DNA of 64,000 nucleotides from NCBI RefSeq assembly GCF_027924965.1, contig NZ_AP027056.1, positions 124,001 through 188,000 of the forward strand, written 5' to 3'. Position numbers and translations under genes: made by a program. The notes below the pieces were generated by a model. It saw only the letters and a program-made list of their open reading frames with translations, was not told the origin of the DNA and searched no databases. The DNA is from Limnohabitans sp. TEGF004 (GTDB lineage Bacteria; Pseudomonadota; Gammaproteobacteria; Burkholderiales; Burkholderiaceae_C). Each line of letters starts with the position of its first letter. Position 1 is the first letter of the stretch. Shown here in pieces: positions 47,936 to 55,634 of this stretch.

Positions 47936-50234
<2,299 letters not shown>

Positions 50235-50267
50235 GTGCTTGAGGGCCGGACGGGCCCGTTCCAAGTA

Positions 50268-50297
50268 AAAACAGCCGTGATTTTCGCACGGCTGTTT
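50268..50297. terminator. Hairpin terminator between queA and the first lipoprotein
   Basis: AAACAGCCGTG-attttcg-CACGGCTGTTT. Short T and A runs on both flanks. Lies downstream of the minus-strand lipoprotein gene (50319-51014), so it most likely serves that gene. Confidence 0.75.
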
Positions 50298-50318
50298 AAG
50301 GTGTCTCGTTAACTAGGT

Positions 50319-51014
50319 TTAGTTCATCACGAGATGGGTGGTTGAACCGTTGGCGTATTGGATATCAATAGAGATGAGTGTGAGACTTCCGTCGGCAGCG
50401 ATTCGATACCTATCTTGTTCGGTAGATGTGAGTACGTTAGAAGCGTTGTATGTTTTTGAAATCAGGTTTGCTATGGCGGTAGTGGCTGTGTCTGCCTCAA
50501 TCACGTAACTGTTTTGCTGAGTCCCTGAAGGTGTTGATTTTGTGCTGTTTGTGTATTTGTTGATAGTGCCTACAACGGCAACATCTCCGACTCGTGCGTT
50601 GTTCGGTAAGGATGGTGGCGATGTCCAAACGCCGTAATCCCCTCCCACGATGGCGAATCCGAGAGGTGCATAGTTTGAGTCGAAATAGCTTGTGGTTGTT
50701 CCAACGTTAGAGGCTGGGGTGCAGTTAGAAACTGTTAGGCTGGCTACAGAGCTTCTGGATAACGCAGCCGATCCTTCAAATACTGTGTTCGTCGTTGCAG
50801 GGCCACTTGTTAACGCAAAAGTTCCCGAGCAAGTTCCGCTAACCGTGAGCGTCGTTGAAAAACCGCTAGCAGTGAGTCTTGCATACCCCGCACGGATGTC
50901 AAAAGTGTTTGTTGATGAAACTGGTCCGCTTGAGCCGCCGCCACCTCCGCCACCTCCACACGCAGAAATCAAAAGAAGCAAGGCCGAAATAAAAAAGAGT
51001 TTCAAGGTTGTCAT
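50319..51014 (-). CDS. Lipoprotein A of a paralogous pair, unknown function
   Basis: 231 residues. Lipobox LISAC with Cys19, then a run of eight glycines as a linker. The rest is a Ser/Thr/Asn-rich beta-type domain with two cysteines, C62 and C98. Segments FDI (38-40), RVGDVAVVG (141-149), SYVIEAD (169-175) and TEQDRY (198-203) recur in the lipoprotein encoded at 51370-52125, so the two share a fold. No known domain recognised. Codon use and A+T content look different from the flanking housekeeping genes. Confidence 0.75.
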   Translation of the reverse strand: MTTLKLFFISALLLLISACGGGGGGGGSSGPVSSTNTFDIRAGYARLTASGFSTTLTVSGTCSGTFALTSGPATTNTVFEGSAALSRSSVASLTVSNCTPASNVGTTTSYFDSNYAPLGFAIVGGDYGVWTSPPSLPNNARVGDVAVVGTINKYTNSTKSTPSGTQQNSYVIEADTATTAIANLISKTYNASNVLTSTEQDRYRIAADGSLTLISIDIQYANGSTTHLVMN

Positions 51015-51064
51015 GGAATGCTTCTTAAATTGGTAAAGACAACCAAGGCTAATAGCGCAGACCC

Positions 51065-51107
51065 CCTAATCCACCTCATATACGAATTAGTGTGTATGTG
51101 AATTAGG
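51065..51107. promoter_or_regulatory. Nested repeats in the lipoprotein A / XRE intergenic region: candidate operator
   Basis: Between the divergent genes lie CATATAC (51077-51083) and GTATGTG (51094-51100), an inverted repeat with one mismatch, two direct copies of GAATTAG (51084 and 51100, 16 bases apart) and an outer CCTAAT/ATTAGG pair (51065-51070, 51102-51107). Such symmetry in front of an XRE gene is what an autoregulated operator would look like. Confidence 0.45.
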
Positions 51108-51118
51108 CATAAATTGGG

Positions 51119-51373
51119 ATGCTCCTCAGTGTGCAGCAACCCCTTTCTCGTTCGTTTGGCCAATGTGTCCGCTTCTTGCGGCAAGCACATGGCATGACGC
51201 AGGTCGAGTTCAGCGAAAAGTGCGGGTTCTACCAGACCTACCTCAGCCGCATTGAGAACGGCCAAGCGAACCCCACGCTCAATGCGATGGAGGTCATCGC
51301 GGTGGGGCTGGGGCTGACGGTGTTTGAGTTGTTTGAGCGCGTGCGGGAGCAGGCGCAGGCTGGTAAGCCTTAG
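51119..51373 (+). CDS. XRE-family helix-turn-helix regulator
   Basis: 84 residues, a single HTH_3 domain (FGQCVRFLRQAHGMTQVEFSEKCG, then QTYLSRIENGQANPTL as recognition helix) with a short C-terminal helix. No ribosome site at normal spacing precedes the ATG; a CATAAA box at 51108-51113 ends only five bases before it, so the mRNA may be leaderless. Encoded between, and opposite to, the two related lipoproteins; its stop overlaps that of the second one by four bases. Confidence 0.88.
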   Translation: MLLSVQQPLSRSFGQCVRFLRQAHGMTQVEFSEKCGFYQTYLSRIENGQANPTLNAMEVIAVGLGLTVFELFERVREQAQAGKP

Positions 51374-52125
51374 TTCAAGCGGCCCTGAACCGTGAAGCCA
51401 TCGGCGTCAAGACGGTCATATTGAATCAGTTGAAGTTGATTGACCCCGTTGCTCAAATTTACCAAGTAACGGAACTGTTCTGTTTTGCCAAGTGGCGCTG
51501 AGGCGTAGCTGGTGGTGGTCGTATCGTAGTGTTTGACTATGAGATTAAAGATGACAGAGTAGGCCGTGTCTTCTTCGATAGCGTAAGACCACACTTGTAT
51601 GCCAACTTTGGCAGAGTTGCTACTTGTGTATTTGTCTACAACCCCAATGACGCCCGTATCCCCCACTTTTGCTGAGGTCGGAAAAGCAGCCACTGCTCGC
51701 CACACATAAACATATAAGTTGTCATAGGCGTAGTAGTTTTTGTATTGGCTGTTGACGACAGCGTAGTAGTAGTAGATGTTGGTGATGTTTGCTGCCGATT
51801 TGTTTTCGTAGGGCGAGTCACAAGGGCTTGCAGCGCCATAAGCAATATTGGTTGACACGACATTTGCCATAACTTGAACGCCTGCGATGTTGGCCGTGCT
51901 GTTGGACAAGATGTATGTGCCTGGACATGGACCGTGGGCTTTGAGTTGCGATGCGTACGGTGCATTGTTGAGGTTCGTCCAGGCATCTTGAATGTCAAAG
52001 CTGCTGGCCGAAATGGCGCGCGCACTGGGGTCTGAGCTGGCCCAGTCGTCGTTGCCAGCACCACCGCCGCACGCTGTGAGCGAGAGCGCCAAGACTAAGA
52101 CACTTGTTAAGACTTCATGTTTCAT
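51370..52125 (-). CDS. Lipoprotein B of a paralogous pair, unknown function
   Basis: 251 residues. Lipobox SLTAC with Cys19, short Gly linker, then a domain that aligns with the neighbour at 50319-51014: FDI at 43-45, cysteines C67 and C102 (spacing 35 against 36), KVGDTGVIG at 153-161, SYAIEED at 180-186 and TEQFRY at 215-220. Residues ~118-141 are very tyrosine-rich (NIYYYYAVVNSQYKNYYAY). Function unknown. An inverted repeat lies just upstream of the start. Confidence 0.75.
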   Translation of the reverse strand: MKHEVLTSVLVLALSLTACGGGAGNDDWASSDPSARAISASSFDIQDAWTNLNNAPYASQLKAHGPCPGTYILSNSTANIAGVQVMANVVSTNIAYGAASPCDSPYENKSAANITNIYYYYAVVNSQYKNYYAYDNLYVYVWRAVAAFPTSAKVGDTGVIGVVDKYTSSNSAKVGIQVWSYAIEEDTAYSVIFNLIVKHYDTTTTSYASAPLGKTEQFRYLVNLSNGVNQLQLIQYDRLDADGFTVQGRLN

Positions 52126-52132
52126 TGTATTT

Positions 52133-52150
52133 TTGTATTCTTAAATACAA
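52133..52150. promoter_or_regulatory. Inverted repeat upstream of lipoprotein B
   Basis: TTGTATT-ctta-AATACAA, perfect 7-bp arms, 8 bases upstream of the lipoprotein B start. It could be an operator or an mRNA hairpin covering the translation start region. I see no strong Shine-Dalgarno site for this gene. Confidence 0.4.
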
Positions 52151-52184
52151 GTTATTGAATCACAATTGTTGCATTGCTGGTTAT

Positions 52185-52203
52185 TTCTAGTTAACTTCTA
52201 GTT
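52185..52203 (+). repeat. Direct repeat upstream of the outer-membrane protein gene
   Basis: TTCTAGTT occurs at 52185-52192 and again at 52196-52203, an 11-base period equal to about one helical turn. This is typical of a regulator bound on one face of the DNA. The repeat lies 49-67 bases before the ATG of the beta-barrel gene. Confidence 0.4.
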
Positions 52204-52251
52204 GGCGATTTGACGAGTTCATCCTCAATCGTGGTGCTGAAAAGGCTGTCT

Positions 52252-53472
52252 ATGCGTGTTCAAAGAATGCAGGTGTTGCTGGTAGGGCTCTGTTTGAGCG
52301 GGCTTGCTTCGGCACAGGTCATGCAAGCTGGTCACGATGAGGCAGTGGATTACCCGCTTGGGCGTTACAACGCTCAGCTGGGCGTGGATGCGTGGCAGTT
52401 TTCAAATGGCCGCCCCGACCCTTTGTTGATGATGTCGACCAACGCGCAATGGCATTACCGACCTGTTTCACCGTGGGGTACTTTTGATGGCCGCTTGATG
52501 GTTTCCCCGAGGGCCACGTTGGCATTTAAGGCGCGCAGCAACCAAGAGATGGGGTCTCATGTCGATGAGCTCAGTGCAGATTGGGCAATTTCCCCGCGTC
52601 TAGGTGTGAAGCTTGGCGTGGTGGACTACAAAACCAGCTGGTGCCGCACATATGACATTGACTCGCCTTGGGTGCGTGAGAACGACCCGTTTTGCACGGT
52701 GGTGGATGTCAGCGGCCCTAGCGGAGGTGCGCCCGGTGCGCAGCTGTATACGAATATGCAAGTAGGTGCTTATCGTTTGCAGGGAATTGCTGGCGTCTAC
52801 AGCCCTTTGTGGTTCGGCTATAACAAGACCGAATTTTCAAACCTCACGTATTCAAACAGTCGCGTCGAGAAGAACAACAAGCAAGGCTTCTCAATCAATG
52901 CCTTAAATTTGGATACCGCGACGGAGTTTCGATTCGGATACTTGGCCACACAGCAAGAGCAGGCAGTCCATGGCGGCTGGAATGCGCCAGACTTTCGGGT
53001 GGACCAGGTGTATGACATCACGTTTGCAGGCGTGAGTTTTTACGCGATGCCCAAGCTCAATGTGCGCATGCAAACACTGCGTCACGCGATGTCCAACAAG
53101 AATGTGGTGGAGCCCGGTTCTAGCTATCCGCACACCGTCCGGGGCAACGTGCTGTTACGGCGCTCGTATGTGATGGAGTTCAATTACCAACAGGATGCGC
53201 AGAACGTGTTTGCATTTGCTGCCTCCAAGTTTTTGATGCACAACGCTTTGACTAGAACCAACTATCCCTATTCAGGCTACACGGTGTATCCAGATTTTTC
53301 AGATTACACACAGCGAAGTTTTTCTGTGGCGTGGCGACATGATTGGCCCGAAGGCTTATTCACCGCAGTTCAGCTCACGCGCAGCAGTTTGGTCGACACG
53401 AGCTCTTATTACGGGTATGACAAAGCGATGCATGCCAACGGCTTAGGTATGCGCCTCGGCTACCAGTTTTAA
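52252..53472 (+). CDS. Outer-membrane beta-barrel (porin-like) protein
   Basis: 406 residues from ATG 52252 (AAAGGCTGTCT upstream; the longer frame starts with TTG and breaks the signal peptide). Signal peptide ends ASA near residue 21. The mature protein is rich in alternating aromatic and polar residues and ends in GMRLGYQF, the terminal phenylalanine recognised by BAM. Two cysteines (SWCRTYD and DPFC) may form a loop disulfide. Length fits a 16-18 stranded barrel; substrate unknown. Divergent from lipoprotein B. Confidence 0.75.
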   Translation: MRVQRMQVLLVGLCLSGLASAQVMQAGHDEAVDYPLGRYNAQLGVDAWQFSNGRPDPLLMMSTNAQWHYRPVSPWGTFDGRLMVSPRATLAFKARSNQEMGSHVDELSADWAISPRLGVKLGVVDYKTSWCRTYDIDSPWVRENDPFCTVVDVSGPSGGAPGAQLYTNMQVGAYRLQGIAGVYSPLWFGYNKTEFSNLTYSNSRVEKNNKQGFSINALNLDTATEFRFGYLATQQEQAVHGGWNAPDFRVDQVYDITFAGVSFYAMPKLNVRMQTLRHAMSNKNVVEPGSSYPHTVRGNVLLRRSYVMEFNYQQDAQNVFAFAASKFLMHNALTRTNYPYSGYTVYPDFSDYTQRSFSVAWRHDWPEGLFTAVQLTRSSLVDTSSYYGYDKAMHANGLGMRLGYQF

Positions 53473-53498
53473 AAACCGCTTGGCGGCGGGCACAATCA

Positions 53499-55634
53499 AT
53501 GCCCATGCCGCCCGCAGAAAAAGCCTCGACCAAACCCCTCTCCGCACCGCAAAAAGCGCTGCGCAAGCTCGGGCTGGACCGCGACATTGATTTGGCCCTG
53601 CACCTGCCGCTGCGCTACGAAGACGAAACGCGCATCGTGCGTCTGGCTGACACGCGCGAGGGTGACATGGCGCAAATCGAAGCTACGGTGGTGTCGTGTG
53701 ACATCGCCTACAAACCGCGCCGCCAATTGCTTGTGGTGGTGGACGATGGCTCAGACACTTGCACGCTGCGCTTCTTCAGCTTCTACCCTTCACAACAAAA
53801 GGCGTTGGCCGTGGGTAATCGCTTGCGTTTGCGCGGCGAGGTGAAGGGTGGCTTTATGGGGCGCACGATGATGCACCCCGGCTTCAGTATGGCGGGTGGC
53901 GAGCTGCCCAATGCGCTGACGCCCGTGTACCCCACGTCGGCAGGTTTGCCGCAGGTGTATTTGCGTAAGGCAGTACACAGCGGGCTGGTGCATGCGGCGC
54001 GACACGGTGCGTTTGTCGAGACGATTCCGCCCGAGCACATGCCGCGCTCGGCCATGAGTGCTGGCGCGAAGGCGTGGAGCCTTGAGCAGGCCTTGCACTT
54101 TTTGCACCACCCCACGCCCGATGTGTCGCTGGCGCAGCTGGAAGACCGCACACACCCTGCGTGGCAGCGGCTGAAAGCCGAAGAGTTGTTGGCGCAGCAG
54201 CTGTCGCAACTGCAGTCCAAACGTGCGCGTGACGAACTGCATGCGCCGGCCTTAGTGCTGAAAAAAGGCGGTTTGCACGAGCAGTTGTTGGGTGTGTTGC
54301 CATTTGGTTTGACCGGCGCGCAACGCCGCGTGGGTGAAGAAATTGCGCAAGACTTGATGCGCCAAGTGCCCATGCACCGTTTGCTGCAAGGCGATGTGGG
54401 TTCGGGCAAAACTGTGGTGGCGGCATTGGCTGCAGCGGTGGCGATGGATGGCGGTTGGCAATGTGCGCTGATGGCTCCAACTGAAATTTTGGCCGAGCAA
54501 CACTTTCGCAAACTGATTGGTTGGCTAGAGCCTTTGCTCACGCCGTTGGGCAAGCGCGTAGCATGGCTCACGGGGAGCCAAAAGAAGAAAGAACGCACCG
54601 AAATGTTGGGGCTCATCGCCAGTGGCGAAGCTGCTTTGGTGGTGGGCACGCATGCGGTGATTCAAGAGCAGGTCGTCTTTAAAAACTTGGCACTGGCCAT
54701 CATCGACGAACAACACCGCTTTGGTGTGGCACAGCGCTTGGCGCTGCGCGAGAAGATGCTCACACACGACGGCATGCCACAGCAAGAGCCGCACATGCTG
54801 ATGATGAGTGCCACGCCCATTCCGCGCACCTTGGCGATGAGCTATTACGCCGACCTCGATGTGTCGACGTTAGACGAATTGCCACCAGGCCGCACGCCGG
54901 TGGTGACCAAGCTGGTATCAGAGTCACGACGTGATGAGTTGATTGAACGCATTCGCCACCAGCTCGATGAAGGCCGTCAGGTGTATTGGGTGTGCCCGTT
55001 GATTGAAGAAAGCGAAGCGCTCGATTTGACCAATGCCACCGAAACGCATGCCTTGTTGATGGATGCGCTCAACTACCCTGGCACAAAGCCGGTGTTGGTG
55101 GGGCTGCTGCATTCGCGCATGCCACCTGCTGACAAAAAGGCGGTGATGGCGCAGTTTGAAAGTGGCGCCATGGGCGTGCTGGTCAGCACCACCGTGATTG
55201 AAGTGGGCGTGGATGTGCCCAATGCCTCGCTGATGGTGATTGAGCACGCCGAGCGTTTTGGCCTCAGTCAGTTGCACCAGTTGCGTGGGCGTGTAGGGCG
55301 CGGCGCGGCTGCTTCTGCCTGCGTGCTGATGTATGCCACGGGCGAGAGTGGGCGCGTGAGCGAGACGGCGCGCGAGCGGCTGCGTGCAATGGTGGAAACC
55401 TCGGATGGGTTTGAAATTGCACGACGCGATTTAGAAATTCGTGGCCCCGGCGAGTTCTTGGGCGCACGCCAATCGGGTGCCGCATTGCTGCGTTTTGCAG
55501 ACTTGGCAGAAGACGGTGAGCTGTTGCAATGGGCCAGAGAGTTGGCCCCGCTGATGCTGGACATGTACTCCGAGTTGGCCGAGCGACACGTGAGCCGCTG
55601 GTTGGGTGGAAAATCGGATTTCTTGAAGGCTTAA
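53499..55634 (+). CDS. recG: ATP-dependent DNA helicase RecG
   Basis: 711 residues (ATG 53499, or 53505). N-terminal wedge/OB domain (~55-130), Walker A GDVGSGKT at 298-305, DEQHRFG at ~403, then motifs ATPIPRTLAMSYYAD, VLVSTTVIEVGVDVPNA and QLHQLRGRVGRG with the TRG-type C-terminus. It regresses stalled replication forks and branch-migrates Holliday junctions. Followed by oxyR after 14 bases, an association also known in other proteobacteria. Confidence 0.97.
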   Translation: MPMPPAEKASTKPLSAPQKALRKLGLDRDIDLALHLPLRYEDETRIVRLADTREGDMAQIEATVVSCDIAYKPRRQLLVVVDDGSDTCTLRFFSFYPSQQKALAVGNRLRLRGEVKGGFMGRTMMHPGFSMAGGELPNALTPVYPTSAGLPQVYLRKAVHSGLVHAARHGAFVETIPPEHMPRSAMSAGAKAWSLEQALHFLHHPTPDVSLAQLEDRTHPAWQRLKAEELLAQQLSQLQSKRARDELHAPALVLKKGGLHEQLLGVLPFGLTGAQRRVGEEIAQDLMRQVPMHRLLQGDVGSGKTVVAALAAAVAMDGGWQCALMAPTEILAEQHFRKLIGWLEPLLTPLGKRVAWLTGSQKKKERTEMLGLIASGEAALVVGTHAVIQEQVVFKNLALAIIDEQHRFGVAQRLALREKMLTHDGMPQQEPHMLMMSATPIPRTLAMSYYADLDVSTLDELPPGRTPVVTKLVSESRRDELIERIRHQLDEGRQVYWVCPLIEESEALDLTNATETHALLMDALNYPGTKPVLVGLLHSRMPPADKKAVMAQFESGAMGVLVSTTVIEVGVDVPNASLMVIEHAERFGLSQLHQLRGRVGRGAAASACVLMYATGESGRVSETARERLRAMVETSDGFEIARRDLEIRGPGEFLGARQSGAALLRFADLAEDGELLQWARELAPLMLDMYSELAERHVSRWLGGKSDFLKA

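Follow-up and report, generated by a model that had tools for sequence, protein, structure and literature searches.

A small XRE regulator and varying envelope genes in the queA-recG gap of Limnohabitans

Introduction

Chromosomal hotspots of horizontal transfer (Oliveira et al. 2017, PMC5635113) have in common that the same core genes surround differing accessory genes and that the latter turn over rapidly. Here we analyze a gap of this kind, located between queA and recG in a 64,000-nucleotide stretch (the window) of Limnohabitans sp. TEGF004, a member of a dominant freshwater genus (PMC10019246). The gap encodes two lipoproteins, A and B, with a one-domain XRE regulator gene between them on the opposite strand and a porin-like outer-membrane barrel gene divergent from B, an arrangement that had been described in an earlier note on this sequence and that we confirmed (Table 1). 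As in hotspots, queA and recG flank different accessory genes in related genomes. The locus differs from these hotspots in that one small regulator recurs, in that the genes divergent from this regulator are all envelope genes (6 of 6) and in that no mobility gene was seen in the window's gap. The partial texts used here from the literature on Limnohabitans genomes and outer membrane, on genomic islands and on hotspots contained no description of the queA-recG locus. With moderate confidence, we lean towards reading the gap as a site of turnover that combines an old local XRE regulator, exchangeable envelope genes and a variable lipoprotein B that is tied to the barrel.

The regulator is similar to the C proteins of restriction-modification systems in having a single helix-turn-helix (HTH) domain of about 80 residues and a repeated element directly in front of its own gene, and it matches the PADLOC models HTH_VI (E=1.8e-14) and Control_protein (E=4.3e-12). 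Unlike such C proteins, it has no restriction or methyltransferase gene among queA, A, B, the barrel gene, recG and tgt as judged by Pfam, with a match of the general ResIII helicase model to recG being the sole restriction-related Pfam match among its neighbors. Variable surface lipoproteins of Neisseria possess a lipobox, then a poly-Gly/Ser tether and a variable mature domain, and A and B resemble them in all three features, the comparison being one of description only. The LolA/LprG-like superfamily combines a helix with a beta meander, and chains of the LolA superfamily are among the weak Foldseek matches of the structure model of A.

Results

The queA-recG gap varies across the genus

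In what follows, G-numbers denote sampled genomes (G000 is the genome of the window), L-numbers denote fetched loci and coordinates are positions in the window. We found queA in 65 of 84 genus genomes (E up to 1e-50) and, leaving out G122 with queA at a contig end, inspected the queA side of the other 64, namely the window and 63 fetched genomes. The recG gene was reached in 59 of these, while tblastn did not find it in the available stretch of G060, G109, G044, G118 and G103. Measured between alignment ends in the 59 genomes, the window counted, the gap is shorter than 160 bases in 15 (91 bases in G050), 180-370 bases in 17 and longer in 27. Open reading frames (ORFs) in the gap were listed for 19 intervals, 8 loci and a further 16; other stretches were probed by tblastn queries only. 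ParDE-like pairs occupy the gap in 6 of the 64 genomes (G042, G112, G041, G047, G101 and G117 by tblastn, with ParE also recognized by Pfam in G041), and the contents of long gaps also include ornithine-cyclodeaminase-like and YggT genes, a CHAT protein (G003) or a MazF/PemK-like protein (G108). Depending on the genome within the genus, the gap is nearly empty or is occupied by XRE on its own, by ParDE, by envelope genes or by other genes. Outside the genus, G384 carries a relative of A and B in its queA-recG gap (L075:3771-6275), divergent from a different HTH gene with a weak HTH_3 match (E=0.009).

The ParDE intervals are L018, L021, L027, L028, L031 and L152; in G041 and G047 the stop codon of the ParE-like gene overlaps that of XRE, as the stop codon of B does in the window.

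A recurrent XRE regulator with a conserved upstream element

The HTH_3 domain of the regulator scores 45.5 bits against a curated cut-off of 23, which identifies it as an XRE/Cro-CI regulator. Relatives (E up to 1e-12) are present in 14 of the 84 genus genomes, ten of them at queA-recG (10 of the 64 examined, window counted). XRE is the only gene recognized in the gap of G052, G023 and G040, and its composition is native, with 59.2% G+C and a third-position G+C fraction (GC3) of 0.765 that compares with 0.739 for queA and 0.771 for tgt, a further flanking gene identified by Pfam. This sole occupancy in three genomes together with native codon use, unlike that of A and B, makes XRE look like an older resident. 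A has 48.7% G+C, just under the 1st percentile of the window's 700-base stretches (0.489), and a GC3 of 0.45, with corresponding values of 50.1% and 0.58 for B and 53.1% and 0.63 for the barrel gene. The A+T-rich composition ascribed to the locus in the earlier note applies to A and B and weakly to the barrel gene, and not to XRE.

The slot to the left of XRE is filled in six genomes and holds an envelope gene in every one of them. In G000 and G011 this gene is A; G058 and G060 have a Gly-tethered lipoprotein of another family instead, and G041 (OMP_b-brl by Pfam) and G120 (62% identical to that of G041) have a small barrel. The slot is empty in G047, G052, G023 and G040. To the right of XRE we observed B and the barrel gene in G000, G011 and G058, ParDE in G041 and G047, and nothing recognized in G120, G052, G023 and G040; the contig of G060 stops just past XRE, by eye at the start of recG.

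Of 13 XRE loci, 12 carry the core sequence AATTAGTG upstream of the gene, three of these lying elsewhere in the genome; the exception is G047. An 11-base form, ATRTGAATTAG, matches the first copy exactly in 9 of the 13. A second copy follows 16 bases on (at most one mismatch) in seven, namely all six loci with a filled left slot and G023. The doubled element thus accompanies an envelope gene in A's place in 6 of 6 cases and is present in 1 of the 7 other XRE loci, in a post hoc comparison in which the six are close kin. This distribution speaks for an action of the regulator on A or its stand-in. The element adjoins A and not B, and no such XRE-type element was seen in the gap between B and the barrel gene.

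We also scanned for further sites. In the window's own genome (at most one mismatch) three sites were found compared with four in a reversed control, which looks like chance. An exact 12-base scan of the 84 genomes yielded 15 sites (6 in the reversed control), six at XRE loci and nine elsewhere, and the nine occur at similar rates in XRE-bearing (2/14) and XRE-free (7/70) genomes. Neither scan recovers the window's own locus, where the first copy reads ATACGAATTAG, and variant sites would therefore be missed. In these scans no wider XRE regulon appeared, the core sites away from XRE loci being without apparent excess. As judged from the sequence, XRE is best read as a probable local autoregulator that may also act on the divergent gene, whichever it is.

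A second XRE site (L045-L047, in G111, G029 and G018) lies beside a gene of the FAA_hydrolase family (Pfam, L047) with the upstream core kept; the other neighbor there is presumably a transporter-like gene.

B and the barrel form a linked pair with a mosaic structure

In all five genomes that possess B at this locus (G000, G011, G058, G113 and G123) it forms a divergent pair with the barrel gene, and all five B and all five barrel ORFs are open. The pair persists without an intact XRE in two of the five, G113 and G123. At the junction in G123 the last codons of A are joined to the last codons of XRE, a remnant indicating that A and most of XRE were deleted from a once fuller locus in which B and the barrel gene were kept. 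Barrel relatives occur in 13 of the 84 genus genomes. Fifteen further relatives elsewhere in the genus show 32-39% identity, and the 14 that were fetched lie in 12 loci, of which seven adjoin the same FMN (flavin mononucleotide)-dependent dehydrogenase (by eye, one copy by Pfam). None of the 12 loci has a lipoprotein of the A/B family among its called ORFs; the locus in G033 has another Gly-rich lipoprotein alongside. The barrel protein itself has no match in Pfam, NCBIfam or PHROG, nor does any PDB sequence match it below E=0.5. The earlier note had placed a barrel in a joint XRE and lipoprotein locus, and of this the link between barrel and B is what stands.

Comparison of G000 with G123 revealed a mosaic, with nucleotide identities of 88% for queA, 97% for the B leader (here its first 48 codons), 66% for the remainder of B, 98% for the barrel gene and 87% for recG. 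The approximate edges of the highly similar block (Table 1) were taken from a 60-base identity profile. Similarly, protein identity between G011 and G113 is 78% for the barrel and 73% for the B leader and drops to 33% for the rest of B. Among the ten pairs formed by the five genomes, which are not independent, the rest of B is always more divergent at the protein level than queA, recG, the barrel or the B leader (10/10), in agreement with the earlier description of the lipoproteins as fast-diverging. This pattern would fit transfer of the module together with replacement, or very fast change, of a part of B that is probably exposed. Because the draft of G123 is 80% complete, an assembly artefact is possible. 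Gaps of this kind are already known; the mosaic pattern, and the lipoprotein family described below, look new.

A and B belong to one unnamed lipoprotein family

BLASTP aligns A and B with 32% identity over 249 columns (E=3e-25), and the Smith-Waterman score of the mature parts only is 199 compared with 38.7 +/- 6.7 (maximum 81) in 2000 shuffles. The features reported earlier, namely a lipobox at Cys19, cysteine pairs at 62/98 in A and 67/102 in B and the blocks VGD-x3-(I/V)G (VGDVAVVG in A, VGDTGVIG in B), SY(V/A)IE-x-D and TEQ-x-RY, were all found in the sequences, and the likeness is well above chance. Neither protein has a Pfam or NCBIfam model above the curated cut-off. A and B are members of one unnamed lipoprotein family with significant similarity across the mature domain. 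In the family alignment both cysteines are present in 18 of 27 members, including A and B, and neither in 9, with one alone never observed; this all-or-none occurrence argues for a disulfide.

A search with a hand-chosen alignment of 14 members detected the lipoprotein family in 22 of the 399 genomes sampled from the GTDB family, a patchy distribution over 16 of 141 genera. In seven genus genomes (L094-L100) the family domain is the C-terminal part of ORFs of 460-725 residues; in G019 and G012 their N-terminal part is similar to the lipoprotein that takes A's place in the left slot (a six-sequence test gave profile E-values of 1.2e-12 and 5.1e-10, respectively). Most of the large proteins begin as Gly-tethered lipoproteins.

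A search of 28 other family loci (2237 ORFs) with a profile of XRE relatives gave one clear case, G461, in which the lipoprotein has a divergent HTH_3 gene and an HsdM-like gene as neighbors, or two if the weak HTH match of G384 is counted. XRE genes near family members elsewhere are thus rare (1/28, or 2/28).

In a tree of 27 rows, whose bootstrap had not settled, A groups with lipoproteins of other genera and B lies on the opposite side of a weak split (62/83). Left out were G097, G385, G417, L076, L087, L088, L090, L092 and a fragment in G025; in the five L-numbered loci, which belong to 20 fetched family loci, the family ORF was unrecovered by the ORF caller. A recent tandem duplication of A and B gains no support from this tree, as the A side contains other genera, although the deep split is weak. 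Of the duplicated family proposed in the earlier note, homology stands and a recent local duplication is not supported.

The structure model of A was built from three sequences (A, B and L015) and predicts a single helix together with a meander of about ten strands. From residue 131 onwards the ten-residue means of its predicted local distance difference test (pLDDT) score are mostly 71-88, with 76 and 59 in the last two blocks. Weak Foldseek matches include chains of the LolA superfamily and fatty-acid-binding-type barrels, and the modeled likeness to the LolA superfamily is a lead only. No relative of A was found among plasmids and phages and none of B among plasmids; a search of viral contigs, which would recover close relatives only, found none of either.

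Discussion

We propose that the Limnohabitans chromosome has a turnover spot between queA and recG, where accessory genes would have been inserted on both sides of an old XRE gene that probably regulates itself and is preceded by a conserved element. The cargo of TEGF004 would consist of two pieces, A, which is divergent from XRE and located by the element, and a B-barrel module that moves as a whole. Both A and B are probably lipoproteins of the outer membrane that carry a beta-rich, disulfide-stapled domain on a flexible Gly/Ser tether, and the mature domain of B may be renewed by recombination or very fast change with its leader and barrel partner retained. The most likely use of such an arrangement would be a variable surface layer that alters recognition by phages or grazers, in which case predators could drive the selection. 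If true, Limnohabitans would offer a concrete surface-variation locus that is small and open to testing, in which a new family of lipoprotein domains has a defined partner and lies between defined flanks. Isolates already exist both with a filled site (TEGF004, INBF002) and with an empty one (MORI2), so that effects on phages and grazers would be directly comparable.

Several observations weigh against this proposal. Surface exposure is suggested solely by the Gly-rich tether and by variability, and a search for Slam (PF04575) gave no match in the window's own genome, nor in any of 14 control genomes. ParDE adjoins XRE without envelope cargo in G047 and occurs without XRE in four genomes, which indicates that the gap is not special to envelope genes. 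The six genomes with a filled left slot are close kin, and relatives of XRE also exist outside queA-recG (G111, G029, G018 and a weakly similar one in G009). The ORFs listed in the gap of the window include no recombinase gene; att sites were not searched. With a mean pLDDT of 62 the model of A is poor, and Foldseek returned nothing under E=0.001 and no clear relative.

A bolder version, which we put forward tentatively and regard as possible though doubtful, is that XRE and its doubled element serve as a constant socket for various envelope genes, while B and the barrel form a travelling module whose exposed domain is swapped between Limnohabitans species; together these would amount to an interspecies surface-variation system in free-living freshwater bacteria. 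One alternative is neutral, with the gap tolerating any insertion, A, B and the barrel being passing cargo, and the variability of B reflecting relaxed selection. Such an origin would account for the many unrelated genes that occupy the gap, the low GC3 of A and B, the patchy family and the deletion of A in G123. We nevertheless consider it unlikely, as the open state of all five B and five barrel ORFs, the retention of the B leader and of 98% of the barrel between G000 and G123 while B varies, and the retention of the cysteines as a pair point to constraint and not to decay.

It appears quite unlikely that XRE controls the envelope locus and switches A and B jointly as a duplicated pair. This explanation is in keeping with the homology of A and B on either side of XRE, with the doubled element in the A/XRE gap, with the order A-XRE-B-barrel in G011 and, with another lipoprotein in A's place, in G058, and with the family lipoproteins divergent from an HTH gene in G384 (at queA-recG) and from an HTH_3 gene in G461. 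This is countered by B and the barrel without intact XRE in G113 and G123, by XRE without lipoproteins in G047, G052, G023 and G040, by the lack of a visible XRE-type element between B and the barrel, by off-locus element sites that are similarly frequent with and without XRE (2/14 and 7/70) and by a tree in which, with weak support, A and B are not sisters. What survives of the XRE control suggested in the earlier note is the doubled element beside A; the separate occurrence of XRE and of the B-barrel pair (2/5 without intact XRE) speaks against the remainder. We regard it as very unlikely that B is a lipoprotein partner required by the barrel as a plug or for assembly or transport, with variability that tracks the ligand of the barrel, since the 12 other loci in the genus (14 of the 15 further barrel relatives) lack a family lipoprotein among called ORFs and B differs between G000 and G123 next to a barrel that has hardly changed, despite the co-occurrence of B and barrel in 5 of 5 cases at this locus.

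Layout of the locus and minor observations

Table 1. Positions of features in and around the queA-recG gap of the window.
Feature	Position	Strand	Remarks
queA (Queuosine_synth)	49137..50264	-	left core flank; PF02547 E=3.9e-128
terminator-like hairpin, 11-pair stem	50269..50297	-	between A end and queA; fold -16.4 kcal/mol, z=-4.46 (200 shuffles)
lipoprotein A, 231 aa	50319..51014	-	signal peptide, lipobox Cys19, poly-Gly/Ser linker, predicted beta-rich domain with Cys62/Cys98
operator-like direct repeat ATACGAATTAG-n5-ATGTGAATTAG, 16-base period	51080..51106		in A/XRE divergent gap; putative
one-domain XRE/Cro-CI regulator, 84 aa	51119..51373	+	PF01381 E=7.7e-12
lipoprotein B, 251 aa	51370..52125	-	family of A; lipobox Cys19, Cys67/Cys102; leader (about codons 1-46) conserved, mature domain hypervariable
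block ~98% identical to G123 (B leader, intergenic gap, barrel)	51987..53512		flanked by less similar stretches
porin-like outer-membrane barrel gene, 420 aa	52210..53472	+	C-terminal Phe; start codon uncertain; barrel nature from sequence
recG (DNA helicase)	53499..55634	+	right core flank; PF17191, PF19833, helicase domains

A and XRE are divergent, and XRE and B are convergent with overlapping stop codons. A consensus scan of 50200-53520 found no promoter, and we make no promoter claim for a TTCACA-16-TATAAA arrangement noticed by eye in relatives. The hairpin next to queA was not listed by this consensus scan; by eye it is also present in several genomes without A.

In G184 and G295 (L079 and L082, from one other genus) the family gene lies near Phage_integrase genes. 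On a contig titled uncultured Pedosphaera (L015:5700-9106), an A-type lipoprotein is located directly upstream of a CsgG-family gene (PF03783), which is followed by lipoprotein-like ORFs that we take to resemble DUF4810/DUF799. The G+C content of L015 steps from ~0.67 to ~0.52 just before the lipoprotein, at about 5.7 kb; as a chimeric contig and transfer are indistinguishable from such a step, this is no evidence for cross-phylum transfer, and the L015 lipoprotein was still kept among the rows of alignments A1-A3 and of the tree. Finally, an alternative GTG start of XRE at 51131 would yield a protein of 80 residues and matches the start of its relatives in the alignment.

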